Assembly: GCA_003153355.1 (NCBI GenBank)
Contig: PLYH01000001.1
Coordinates: forward strand, 100,565-164,564
Direction: 5' to 3'
Source of the DNA: Candidatus Peregrinibacteria bacterium
GTDB lineage: Bacteria; Patescibacteriota; Gracilibacteria; UBA1369
Length of the DNA: 64,000 nucleotides
The notes under the pieces are model-generated. The model was given only the letters and a program-made list of their open reading frames with translations. It searched no databases and was not told the DNA's origin. The stretch's first letter is position 1; each line of letters starts with the position of its first letter. The translations under genes and the position numbers were made by a program. Shown one piece after another: positions 49,329 through 55,057 of the stretch.

Positions 49329-50651
49329 ATGCCAAAGGCACTTTTAGAGAGGATTCAGGGAGATATGACCATTTCACGGTCTTTGCCAACCTTGACTGCA
49401 AGCGCCAGATATTGCCTGTATGCTCGTAAAAGCTCAGAATCGGACGAAAAACAGACAATGAGCATCGATGCTCAGCTCAAAGAAATGTTGGCAATCGCCG
49501 AAAGGGATCATTTGAATGTGGTGGAGATAAAGCAAGAAAGTAAGAGCGCAAAGGCGACAGGGGTAAGAACAGAGTATAACCAGCTAATAAATGAAATCGC
49601 GGAAGGAAAGATCAATGCAATCTTGACCTGGGCACCAGACCGCCTAAGTCGCAACGCCGGGGATCTGGGTTCTTTGGTGGATCTTATGGATCAGGGTAAA
49701 CTTCTACAAATCAGAACACATGGGCAGAATTTTACCAACAATCCCAATGAAAAATTCTTGCTCATGATCCTTTGTAGTCAGGCCAAACTCGAAAACGATA
49801 ACAGAGGAAAAAATGTAAAACGGGGCCTAAAATTTATGTGTGAAATGGGAAAAAGGCCGGGGTTACCTCCGCTGGGATATAAACTGTACCGAGACCCTAT
49901 CGATCTTTCGAAAAAAAGCCAAATCGTGATTGATCCCGAAAGAGCACCATTCGTTAAAAAGATGTTTGAATATGTTATCGACGGGTGCAGCGGAAGGCAG
50001 GTGAACGAATACCTTCAGGATGAGGGCTTAAGAACAAGAAAAGGAAAAAGGGTTCCGTTGAGCATGATGTACCGGATATTTAAAGACCAGTTCTACTATG
50101 GAGAATTTGAATATCCCGAAGGCAGCGGAAATTGGTACAAAGGCACCTACGAGCCGATCATCACGAAAGAACAATGGCAACAAGCCAATAATCAACTAAA
50201 AACCTATGCAAAATCCAAATGGGGCAGCAAGGTCTTCTACTACAGCAAACTCTTCAAATGTGGGACGTGCGGATCAGGTGTCTGCGGGGAAGAAAGAACA
50301 AACCGGTATGGCTCAAAATATATTTACTATAAATGCACCAAATATGGCGGCAAAAAGCGCTGCAATGAGAAATATATTCGGGAAGAGAAGCTCATCGAAT
50401 CGATTGCCAGAATGATTGAGGAGAATAAGGAGAAAGACACCTTGGTCAGCAAAAAAATCGACAGAGAGGTAAGCAAAATCAATCAGATCCAAAAGCTCAC
50501 GGTTGGACCTAACGCGAAAGAGATCAGCGACATCGATTACATCCAGTACATCCTCAACGGAGGAACGAATTTTGAAAGGAAGCAGTTTCTGGAGTGCATT
50601 GAAGGACAGTTATATTTACAGAGAGGTGAGGTCTTACTGAAACGAAATTAA
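49329..50651 (+). CDS. Large serine recombinase (resolvase/integrase family)
   Basis: A 440-aa recombinase that joins and excises DNA at att sites. The catalytic domain has YARKSSESDEKQTMSID (likely catalytic Ser35), then LTWAPDRLSRNAGDL. The recombinase domain has GYKLYRDP, and a zinc ribbon of CGTCGSGVCGEE...YYKCTKYGG...C is followed by a helical tail. The start may be 49,329 or the ATG at 49,365. It is the likely mover of the island. It lies about 0.9 kb from the right repeat. Confidence 0.92.
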   Translation: MPKALLERIQGDMTISRSLPTLTASARYCLYARKSSESDEKQTMSIDAQLKEMLAIAERDHLNVVEIKQESKSAKATGVRTEYNQLINEIAEGKINAILTWAPDRLSRNAGDLGSLVDLMDQGKLLQIRTHGQNFTNNPNEKFLLMILCSQAKLENDNRGKNVKRGLKFMCEMGKRPGLPPLGYKLYRDPIDLSKKSQIVIDPERAPFVKKMFEYVIDGCSGRQVNEYLQDEGLRTRKGKRVPLSMMYRIFKDQFYYGEFEYPEGSGNWYKGTYEPIITKEQWQQANNQLKTYAKSKWGSKVFYYSKLFKCGTCGSGVCGEERTNRYGSKYIYYKCTKYGGKKRCNEKYIREEKLIESIARMIEENKEKDTLVSKKIDREVSKINQIQKLTVGPNAKEISDIDYIQYILNGGTNFERKQFLECIEGQLYLQRGEVLLKRN

Positions 50652-51674: not shown

Positions 51675-51749
51675 TGGCTGGGGAGGAGGGATTCGAACCC
51701 CCGCATGGTGCCTCCAGAGGGCACTGCCTTACCGCTTGGCCACTCCCCA
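51675..51749 (-). tRNA. tRNA-Gln (anticodon CTG)
   Basis: On the minus strand: acceptor TGGGGAG paired with CTCCCCA, D arm GCC-AAGCGGTAA-GGC, anticodon stem GTGCC/GGCAC with loop CTCTGGA (anticodon CTG, reads CAG), T loop TTCGAAT, discriminator G, and an encoded CCA. It is co-directional with gmk, which ends 33 bp upstream. Confidence 0.95.
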
Positions 51750-51782: not shown

Positions 51783-52397
51783 TTAAACCTTCAAGTCCGC
51801 TTTTGAGGCAATTGTTAATCCTGCCTTTGCCGCCTGGTCGGCAATAATCTTCTCCACGTCGGCAACACACTTGGGAATCTGGTCTTCCAGACTCCAGACC
51901 TGGTAATCAAAAAGATCGGCGTCAGCCATTTCGCGCTTAGCGCTTTCCATGCGGCGGTCAATCTCTTCCTGGGGAAGCTTGCCGCGCTTGGCGATTCTTT
52001 CCAAAAGTTTTTCCGGACTTTCAGCTTTCAAAAAAATCGTCGTCAAATTTTCCTTGGGCACCACTTTACGGATGGAATGAAATCCCTGCACATCAACTTC
52101 GCGGATCACGATCTTTCCGGCCTCAAGCGCATCCATGATCGGTTTCTTTAAGGTACCGTAGTAATCCTTCTGATGGACCTGGGCCCATTCCAAAAAATTT
52201 CCTTTGTCGATTTCGGACTTAAAACGTTCTGCACTGATAAAATGGTAGGTTTCACCATCTTTTTCGCCGGGGCGGATAGCCCGGGTGGTATGCGAAATCG
52301 GAAAAACGAATTGCGGATATTTTGCCTTGAGCGCGCGGATGACCGTGCCTTTACCCACGCCCGAGGGACCTGAAATGATGAATAAAATTCCTTTCAT
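51783..52397 (-). CDS. gmk: Guanylate kinase
   Basis: Converts GMP to GDP. It is 204 aa. The P-loop GPSGVGKGTVIR, then HTTRAIRPGEKDGETYHFIS and VIREVDVQGFHSIRK match the family. A C-terminal helical tail follows. The gene runs into tRNA-Gln. Confidence 0.97.
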   Translation of the reverse strand: MKGILFIISGPSGVGKGTVIRALKAKYPQFVFPISHTTRAIRPGEKDGETYHFISAERFKSEIDKGNFLEWAQVHQKDYYGTLKKPIMDALEAGKIVIREVDVQGFHSIRKVVPKENLTTIFLKAESPEKLLERIAKRGKLPQEEIDRRMESAKREMADADLFDYQVWSLEDQIPKCVADVEKIIADQAAKAGLTIASKADLKV

Positions 52398-52439: not shown

Positions 52440-52468
52440 TTGTAAAAACCCGTCAAAAATGCTAGAAT
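52440..52468 (+). promoter_or_regulatory. Sigma-70 promoter with extended -10 for the structured RNA
   Basis: -35 TTGTAA (52,440-52,445), exact 17-bp spacer, -10 TAGAAT (52,463-52,468) preceded by TGC, i.e. an extended -10. It points right, away from gmk, into a region without a gene. A start near 52,475 is expected. Confidence 0.6.
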
Positions 52469-52474
52469 ATTAGG

Positions 52475-52989
52475 ATAACTTCAATTCAAGAAGCTGCTCC
52501 TTAAAAACACAAACCGAATCGAAAAGTAGTTAGACACTAGAGAAATTCGTCTTACGGCAAATGACTCTGCTGCCTCCCTACTTTTCGATGCAGCCAGCGC
52601 GACAACCGGCTCCAACCTAAAGTAGCCTCCACCGGACTTCCGCAGAAATCTTTCTTGCGGTCACGTGGAGGTTCCTACAAAAAACAAAAACACACTCAAC
52701 CAAAAAGTTTACTTCTCCTCGCCTACGGCCGGGAGAGAAACGCAAAAAACAAAAATACAAATGGACGGCGGTGTAGCTAGCGTCCTAAAACAAAGCACCA
52801 AAGAACGGTAGGGAGAATGTTTTTCAGATTTAATTATCTGAAAGACGGTAACAGGAAACCTTGTTCGCAATCCTGTTGCCAACCGCTCCTTGATCTTCTT
52901 TATCCTCAGCGCATATAAACTTTGCAGCTGATAGGGTAAGGTCAGAGAGTATTAAAAGGACCAGCATCTTTACGAAGCTGGTCCTTTTT
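52475..52989 (+). ncRNA. Unidentified structured RNA of about 515 nt
   Basis: There is no reading frame, but strong structure. Stem A: 52,518-52,529 with 52,578-52,589, 12 perfect pairs (ATCGAAAAGTAG/CTACTTTTCGAT). Stem B: CCTCCAC/GTGGAGG (52,626-52,671) enclosing CCGCA/TGCGG. Stem C: GGACG/CGTCC (52,763-52,785). Stem D: TTTCAGAT/ATCTGAAA (52,822-52,843). Stem E: 52,847-52,856 with 52,871-52,880, ten pairs. Closing stem: AGGATA with TATCCT and AAGAAG with CTTCTT (52,472-52,493 with 52,895-52,906). Promoter and terminator bracket it. No RNase P, tmRNA, SRP or 6S core was found. Confidence 0.55.
52954..52989. terminator. Strong bidirectional terminator
   Basis: Stem AAAAGGACCAGC / GCTGGTCCTTTT with an 11-nt loop and T-runs in both directions. 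It can end the plus-strand RNA and, on the minus strand, ssb, whose stop codon is 16 bp away. Confidence 0.88.
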
Positions 52990-53004
52990 CCTTTGCATTT
53001 AAAT

Positions 53005-53499
53005 TTAAAATGGCAAATCTTCAATCGCAACCTCTTCCTGAGGAGCAGGCGCGTTCACGTCGCCGCCTTCTGCAGGTTGGTTTTGCTGAATGCCGGCTGC
53101 TTTGCGCGGAGCCATATTTGCTGACGGAGTGTATCCGCCCATTTCGCCGTCTCCGCTGGAAGCACCTTTGCGGTCGAGCATGATGACGTTGTCCGCAACG
53201 ATTTCCGTCCGGTAGCGTTTGACGCCGTCTTCACCTTCCCAATCGCGGGTCTGGATGCGACCTTCCACATAAACTTTGCTGCCCTTCTTCATATACTGGC
53301 CGATGATTTCCGCCAATTTTCTCCAGGCCACGATGTTGTGGAATTCAACTCTTTCCTGTTTCTGGCCGGAAGAATCCGTCCAGGTAAAATTGGTCGCAAC
53401 GCTGAACGATGCAACAGTCTGCCCTCCTGGAATCTGTTTCAATTCGGGATCGCGCGTGATGTTGCCGATGATCTGGGCTCGGTTCAATGACATTGCCAT
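53005..53499 (-). CDS. ssb: Single-stranded DNA-binding protein
   Basis: Coats single-stranded DNA in replication and repair. It is 164 aa. OB fold: LNRAQIIGNITRDPELK, then VASFSVATNFTW and KGSKVYVEGRIQTRDW. A Gly/Pro/Gln-rich linker ends in the acidic protein-interaction tip IEDLPF. Confidence 0.97.
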   Translation of the reverse strand: MAMSLNRAQIIGNITRDPELKQIPGGQTVASFSVATNFTWTDSSGQKQERVEFHNIVAWRKLAEIIGQYMKKGSKVYVEGRIQTRDWEGEDGVKRYRTEIVADNVIMLDRKGASSGDGEMGGYTPSANMAPRKAAGIQQNQPAEGGDVNAPAPQEEVAIEDLPF

Positions 53500-53809: not shown

Positions 53810-55057
53810 ATGAATACTTACGCATTTATCCTGGGCCGGAAACAGCTACTCTCCATTGCGGAACTCTGCAGCATGCTCGGACCGAAGGCCAAAATCATTG
53901 ATATCGTTCCTGAAGCGCTCATCGCCGAACTTCCTGAACCTCTTGCTCATCCGCAAGAGAGCTTGGACCGTCTGGGCGGAACCATCAGCATTGCCGAAAT
54001 TTTTCACCAGTCAAAAAAAGAAAAGTCTGCCATCGTCCCGGCAGTCGGTGAATTTCTGACAACAAAGTTTCAGGGCAGACCGAACAAGCTCAATTACGGA
54101 GTAAGTATCTCCAGTTTTACAGAAAGACATGAAGAAATTTTAAAAAAAACCTTAATTTCTCTGAAAAAAGACCTCGTCGAAGCCGGACTCAAATCAAGAT
54201 TCATCAATAAAAATTTCAAAAACGTTGAGACCGCAGCCATCCACGGTGAAAAACTCCTCAAGGACGGAGCACACATCACGATCATCCAGGGCAACCACCA
54301 CTATTTTTACGGCAACACCGTTGCTTTGCAGAATCTTGAAAAATATACCCAGCGCGATTACGAACGGCCGGGCCGCGACCCGCACCTTGGCATGCTTCCG
54401 CCAAAACTCGCCCAGATGATGATCAACATGGCCGGTAAAACACCGCCCGAAGAAAAAATTCCCGAACACACACTTCTCTATGATCCGTTCACCGGCATCG
54501 GCACCGTGCTGACTGAAGGTTTGCTTCTGGGCTTTGACGTTCTTGGATCTGACCTCAACCAGATTGCTTTGGATAAAGCGAAAAAAAACATCGACTGGAC
54601 CACGCAAAAATACAATCTCCTCCGCCCCCAGCCCAGGCTCTTTCTTAAGGACGCCACCCATCTGACCAAAAAAGACCTGCCCGAATCCCCTGCCCTCATT
54701 GTCACTGAATCTTATCTCGGGCCGCCGGTCAGCCAATTTCCGCTTCCGGAAAATATGAGAAAAACTTTCGGAAACATTCGCGAAACTTTATTCAGATTTT
54801 TCCAGTCGATCAGGCCGCTAATCAAAAAAGGGACGCCGATCGTCATCAGCTTTCTCGCATACAAACGCAAAGACCGATTTTTCTTCGTAGAAAATCTCAT
54901 TGAAGACGTCATCAACCTCGGATTCCGCGCTGAACCTCTGATCCCCCACGAAATCAGCAAAAAATACGGACTCAAAGTCTACCAGCGCCTCGGCCTGATT
55001 TACGACCGTCCGGACCAGATTGTCTGCCGTGAAATCTGGAAATTCACCGTACTCTAA
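53810..55057 (+). CDS. TRM11-like SAM-dependent RNA methyltransferase
   Basis: A 415-aa protein. The N-terminal ~180 residues resemble the THUMP-like part of TRM11-type tRNA methyltransferases. The Rossmann domain has LYDPFTGIGTVLTEGLLLG followed by GSDLNQIALDKAKKNI. Motif IV, normally D/N-PPY, reads VTESYLGPPVSQF, a variant in which the usual D/N-P-P-Y is replaced. Its substrate is therefore uncertain. Ends 15 bp before the SemiSWEET gene. Confidence 0.75.
   Translation: MNTYAFILGRKQLLSIAELCSMLGPKAKIIDIVPEALIAELPEPLAHPQESLDRLGGTISIAEIFHQSKKEKSAIVPAVGEFLTTKFQGRPNKLNYGVSISSFTERHEEILKKTLISLKKDLVEAGLKSRFINKNFKNVETAAIHGEKLLKDGAHITIIQGNHHYFYGNTVALQNLEKYTQRDYERPGRDPHLGMLPPKLAQMMINMAGKTPPEEKIPEHTLLYDPFTGIGTVLTEGLLLGFDVLGSDLNQIALDKAKKNIDWTTQKYNLLRPQPRLFLKDATHLTKKDLPESPALIVTESYLGPPVSQFPLPENMRKTFGNIRETLFRFFQSIRPLIKKGTPIVISFLAYKRKDRFFFVENLIEDVINLGFRAEPLIPHEISKKYGLKVYQRLGLIYDRPDQIVCREIWKFTVL

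Follow-up and report, generated by a model that had tools for sequence, protein, structure and literature searches.

A conserved, covarying structure marks a candidate large non-coding RNA gene between gmk and ssb in Peregrinibacteria

Results and discussion

Comparative sequence analysis of the gap between gmk and ssb in a Candidatus Peregrinibacteria genome demonstrated a conserved, covarying RNA structure that lies on the plus strand and keeps a fixed genomic place. The gap is part of a 64,000-nt window (the whole stretch of DNA that was analysed), for which a preliminary description had suggested that a structured RNA some 515 nt long, possibly of a new kind, is encoded there; this proposal was borne out by the negative Rfam result together with the compensatory changes detailed below. 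It is reasonably probable, in our judgement, that the element is the gene, present in single copy, of a large structural RNA that is non-coding and acts in trans, and that this RNA would function as an RNP or as an RNA-only scaffold. This explanation is preferred because of the conservation of the element, its synteny with gmk and ssb, covariation, wobble pairs valid on the plus strand, the extended -10, the negative Rfam result and the lack of a conserved reading frame, and also because of the close energies of two alternative folds (P0 and P1) and the retention of P0 in 40 of 54 loci. Comparison of the relatives shows that helix P1 closes the core, inside which lie P2, a pair of variable hairpins (P3 and P4), A-rich linkers J3/4 and J4/5 and the pseudoknot P5/P6; the 3' domain that follows includes hairpin P8, whose loop pairs with that of P2. 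The linkers, the pseudoknot and this kissing loop would compact the RNA into a scaffold that would work together with proteins or with further copies of the RNA. From the features below we infer transcription, action in trans, the scaffold role and an order of folding.

51783-52397, minus strand: gmk (guanylate kinase), the divergent neighbour of the RNA gene (PF00625; synteny)
52440-52468, plus strand: promoter (-35 TTGTAA, 17-nt spacer, extended -10 TGCTAGAAT)
52475-52992, plus strand: transcript of about 515 nt, predicted from promoter and terminator
52519-52588, plus strand: P0, optional 5' hairpin, 52519-52529 with 52578-52588 (fold, comparison of loci)
52575-52814, plus strand: core, closed by P1, 52575-52582 with 52807-52814 (alignment, covariation)
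52592-52611, plus strand: hairpin P2, whose loop 52599-52605 (GCGACAA) is the 5' kissing partner (covariation)
52626-52671, plus strand: P3, variable hairpin (family alignment, fold)
52679-52706, plus strand: A-rich linker J3/4, conserved in sequence (family alignment)
52712-52737, plus strand: P4, variable hairpin (family alignment, fold)
52744-52761, plus strand: A-rich linker J4/5, conserved in sequence (family alignment)
52763-52799, plus strand: H-type pseudoknot of P5 (52763-52767/52781-52785) and P6 (52770-52774/52795-52799) (covariation)
52800-52806, plus strand: conserved AAAGAAC adjoining P1 (alignment)
52820-52845, plus strand: hairpin P7 (fold)
52847-52880, plus strand: hairpin P8, whose loop segment 52861-52868 is the 3' kissing partner (kissing test, fold)
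52885-52949, plus strand: 3' domain with helices P9 and P10 (fold, relatives)
52954-52989, plus strand: terminator hairpin and T-run, replaced in many relatives by a larger conserved terminal hairpin
53005-53499, minus strand: ssb, the convergent neighbour of the RNA gene (PF00436; synteny)

The gap between gmk and ssb contains no reading frame above 66 aa. The element had been described as lacking a reading frame, in agreement with a longest frame within it of at most 66 aa, and a conserved frame was not found among the window copy and the compared relatives.

Core architecture and covariation

Perfect stems of the kind listed in the preliminary description do exist (P0 with 11 bp, P8 with 10 bp and P7 with 8 bp); the outer closing stem that it placed near both ends of the RNA is not conserved, the actual closing helix being P1. 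In three loci (L005-L007) the promoter is situated directly before the core, so that the 5' part of the RNA is nonexistent there, and among the other relatives the sequence of this part varies. The two copies of GCTCCTT, for which a contact with 16S-like or ribosome-binding sequences had been suggested, can be read at 52496-52502 and 52885-52891, but such a role found no support, the 5' part being absent from L005-L007 and the sequence variable in the other relatives.

Many compensatory base-pair changes (in P1, P5/P6 and the kissing loop) are present in the relatives, and these place the element among structured non-coding RNA genes. Each of the 8 pairs of P1 is standard in 48 to 52 of 52 loci, a count that omits L058 and L066 (P1 was misplaced in both). 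In alignment A4, 97.3% of 894 cells are paired. Changes on both sides were found in 15 of the 18 pairs of A4 (153 such cells vs 38.7 in shuffled data), and sliding the partners abolished the covariation signal. All of these A4 figures are biased towards the structure, since the alignment was fitted to it, which weighs against the preferred explanation. Two loci with large insertions (L055 and L057) are omitted from A4; its predecessor, A3, already omitted L068-L070 and L072. The pair types of P6 include GGCGA/TCGCC, GACGA/TCGTC, GGTAG/CTACC and GCGT/ACGC. This helix has at least 4 pairs in 43 of 52 loci; five of the remaining loci (L029, L031, L033, L035 and L038) pair, as judged by eye, in a shifted register (GATGG/CCATC).

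Kissing loop between P2 and P8

The loops of P2 and P8, which in the window are separated by about 260 nt, are complementary to each other. Within the 110 nt that follow P1, an uninterrupted match of 5 or more Watson-Crick pairs was found in 46 of 53 loci, which is an upper figure for the P2-P8 contact, as a few matches lie outside the P8 loop (e.g. in L050 and L069). The summed match length was 299, compared with 220 (sd 6.8) after permuting the 3' regions among loci, and was reached by none of 5000 permutations, the sequences being treated without correction for relatedness. Among the pair types are CGACTA/TAGTCG, CCCAACT/AGTTGGG, AGGCTA/TAGCCT, CCAATCA/TGATTGG and CGACGA/TCGTCG.

Fewer than 5 contiguous Watson-Crick pairs were seen in 7 of the 53 loci (L019, L024, L031, L033, L038, L053 and L057), and the window copy is among these. 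Once G.U pairs are allowed, L031, L033 and L057 reach 6 or 7 pairs, and L024 reaches 6, solely at a site other than the P8 loop; for L038 and L053, the script probably picked the wrong hairpin. The window copy has a weak P2 stem (only 4 bp) and its kissing interaction is readable only as GCGA/UCGC, which counts against the preferred explanation. Both the kissing test and the P0 test omit L068 (a partial match) as well as L047 and L072 (anchor motif not found), and L044, having no called P2, is outside the kissing test.

Alternative pairing of P0 and P1

P0 occupies the 5' strand of P1 and the two helices are thus mutually exclusive. Upstream pairing of at least 8 pairs was found in 40 of 54 loci and of at least 9 pairs in 34 of 54 (mean 9.7 vs 6.6 in shuffles). 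In L005-L007, a distance of 16 nt between the start of the extended -10 and the core means that P0 is absent while P1 is retained; P1 is therefore regarded as the constant element and P0 as an addition. The nested energies of the P0 and P1 folds in the window are close (-167.1 and -161.5 kcal/mol, respectively, with pseudoknots uncounted). During transcription P0 would form first and would be displaced when the 3' strand of P1 appears; alternatively, P0 may serve as a switch between two states of the RNA.

Distribution and genomic context

A DNA search recovered the core from all but one of the 13 family genomes (the exception is 53% complete), and all 12 matches are situated between gmk and ssb. 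The covariance model of the core built from the family alignment A1, designated R1, matched, at E <= 0.01, 61 of the 89 order genomes; the 28 order genomes without a match count against the preferred explanation. At the class level, R1 matched 67 of 353 genomes at E <= 1e-4, ten of which fall outside the order. A refined model, R2 (51 sequences), matched 97 of the 353 at E <= 0.001, the weakest of these matches being doubtful, and scored at least 30 bits in 75; the weaker or partial R2 matches, often covering the A-rich middle alone, are probably due to chance.

The 62 loci searched with R1 were reduced to 57 accepted order loci, L071 and L073-L076 being dropped as chance matches because they scored below 30 bits and were without gmk and ssb. 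All of the accepted loci have gmk and/or ssb nearby. A divergent gmk upstream was found in 51 of the 57, a convergent ssb downstream in 42, and at least one of these in 56; in the remaining locus (L051) the RNA is flanked by the two genes but has the reverse orientation, which fits action in trans. The distance to gmk is 0.8-2.1 kb in L039, L057, L062 and L067. Out of 20 class-level or weak matches that were fetched, 15 have gmk upstream. L113 is a member-like sequence in a fetched piece without gmk, and the membership of L123, L125, L126 and L127 is unproven.

The prevalence of this gene order (51 and 42 of the 57 loci for gmk and ssb, respectively) speaks for a different explanation, namely cis-acting or antisense control of gmk or ssb, e.g. 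by transcription interference or by an RNA overlapping the end of ssb. We find this distinctly unlikely, as the predicted transcript is directed away from gmk and stops short of ssb, while in 15 of the 57 loci no downstream ssb was detected (contig ends truncate some of the pieces), and neither the four loci with a distant gmk nor the reversed RNA of L051 agrees with it; moreover, control of this kind would not require that a pseudoknot and a kissing loop be conserved.

An exact-pattern scan covering 84,980 species, each represented by a single genome, produced 28 matches, 25 of which were confirmed by R1. The confirmed matches carry the names Candidatus Peregrinibacteria, Peribacteria, Gracilibacteria or Patescibacteria (one is named only 'bacterium'), and the matches that R1 did not confirm, L086 (Blastochloris), L100 (Actinomyces) and L104 (Thermodesulfobacteriota), were taken as chance. 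Viral contigs yielded no match with one exact pattern, of a kind that misses over half of the known members. As near-identical exact patterns recover only 23 and 26 of 54 known members, i.e. less than half, absence elsewhere (including viral contigs) is weakly tested.

The 3' end of the RNA

The terminator described earlier, a hairpin followed by a T-run, is present at 52954-52989; it was missed by a simple scan, probably because its loop is longer than 8. A larger hairpin takes the place of this terminator in many relatives; within it CACCUCU is invariant, and the stretch around CAUGUG that partners it is nearly so. A motif scan, which includes a few spurious matches, located this terminal hairpin in 41 of 82 loci, and CACCUCU did not vary across 15 hand-picked terminal hairpins that were aligned. 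According to the scan, the window copy and the other family members are without the CACCUCU hairpin, except for L015.

We take the UCACCUCUG of the terminal hairpin to resemble the 3' end of 16S rRNA, and an RNA acting at the level of translation could use this segment to bind ribosome-binding sites or ribosomal proteins. The invariance of CACCUCU in the 15 chosen hairpins and the detection of such a hairpin in 41 of the 82 scanned loci (including some spurious ones) are in favour of such a function, which nevertheless appears quite improbable given that the hairpin is absent from the window and from the family (L015 excepted) and that its loop may be a mere structural motif. As a separate observation, the CACCUCU/CAUGUG hairpin found 3' of the core (in L015, L029, L030, L114-L119 and others) persists even with a diverged core.

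Comparison with known RNAs

Scanning of the window and of relatives (20 and 10 loci) against the Rfam library, at gathering and lax thresholds, revealed no family match for the element; the matches were only tRNAs and chance ones, such as eukaryotic microRNAs and snoRNAs. The preliminary description had recognized no core of RNase P, tmRNA, SRP or 6S RNA, and indeed none of those models matches the window. Bacterial RNase P RNA of class A is also a large, structured housekeeping RNA; RF00010 is without a window match and the genome's own copy is located at C2:205853-206212. tmRNA shares pseudoknots, single-stranded linkers and a similar length with the RNA described here, but RF00023 does not match the window and the genome has a separate tmRNA gene (C5:110329-110751).

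To our knowledge, large single-copy RNAs kept at one place across much of a bacterial class are rare; RNase P RNA, tmRNA and SRP RNA are such large RNAs and have proved to be central machines. Carried further, the preferred reading of the element as a structural RNA would make it a new housekeeping RNA comparable in rank to tmRNA or SRP RNA. It would then be the central component of a particle that most Peregrinibacteria possess and that might work at the ribosome or the membrane of cells devoid of SRP, its assembly being governed by a P0/P1 switch; this extension is speculative and, on balance, unlikely. What matters is that a covarying pseudoknot and kissing loop, unrecognised by Rfam, occur in uncultured bacteria with small genomes, in an order without detected SRP RNA, and that metatranscriptomics, probing and cryo-EM gain a defined target in this RNA.

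SRP RNA and 6S RNA were considered because neither turns up elsewhere in the genome. Matches to RF00169 and RF01854 are absent from the source genome, as are matches to RF00013 at E <= 1. Small SRP RNA was detected in none of the 89 order genomes and large SRP RNA is likewise absent from the source genome, in which an SRP54 GTPase was not found either, the sole PF00448 match being a DEAH helicase. These absences agree with the SRP loss published for Parcubacteria, which are reported to be without ffh and ffs (PMC4508563). They also form the basis for regarding the element as a stand-in for the missing SRP RNA or 6S RNA that takes over part of the SRP work, an idea that is very improbable, since no SRP or 6S model matches the element, and since SRP was lost in Parcubacteria too and yet none of them was named by the exact-pattern scan (84,980 species).

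OLE, GOLLD and ROOL, as portrayed in PMC12286853, are like the present RNA in size class, number of helices, pseudoknots, kissing loops and poorly understood functions. They gave no match in the Rfam scan, these families being assumed to be included in the library. Unlike GOLLD, which PMC12286853 assigns to phages and prophages, the RNA described here is located in the core genome, beside gmk. No report of it was found in the non-subscription literature covered, which comprised, among others, PMC4508563, PMC8321541, PMC4736985 and PMC12286853. The RNA is called new because neither an Rfam family nor the literature found describes it.

Promoter, transcript and strand

The promoter proposed in the preliminary description (TTGTAA-17-TAGAAT with TG in front) is present at 52440-52468. 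A scan for the promoter consensus found 3 sites vs 2.4 expected and taken alone provides no evidence; every one of the 12 family members, however, has exactly one TGNTANAAT ahead of its core. With its own promoter and terminator, the RNA would be produced constitutively.

The fold of the 518-nt sequence has an energy of -167.1 kcal/mol (z -8.2), and none of 100 shuffles was equally good. The opposite strand also folds well (z -6.4), and therefore the folding energy does not decide the strand. The plus strand was assigned because G.U pairs, in the closing helix and in the kissing loop, hold only there: the innermost pair of P1 is U.G in 40 of 52 loci, compatible with the plus strand only, and the kissing pair of L031, L033 and L057 relies on G.U. 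Hardly any credence can be given to the view that there is no functional plus-strand RNA, i.e. that the element is conserved DNA, a minus-strand gmk leader or a chance fold, for although the minus strand likewise surpasses shuffles in folding, the covariation includes wobble pairs valid on the plus strand only and the extended -10 is on the plus strand in 12 of 12 family members.

Other observations

On the far side of ssb, L048 (3864-4031) and L105 (2463-2630), which appear to be one genome, each carry an additional low-scoring R1 match (18.3 bits); it is probably due to chance, and the match in L048 was ignored. In the window, a large serine recombinase (49329-50651, plus strand) with Resolvase, Recombinase and zinc ribbon domains (Pfam) is about 1 kb from a tRNA gene (51678-51749, minus strand), an arrangement as in an integrated mobile element. 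A 415-aa frame at 53810-55057 (plus strand) has a DNA methylase match at the sub-threshold level only.
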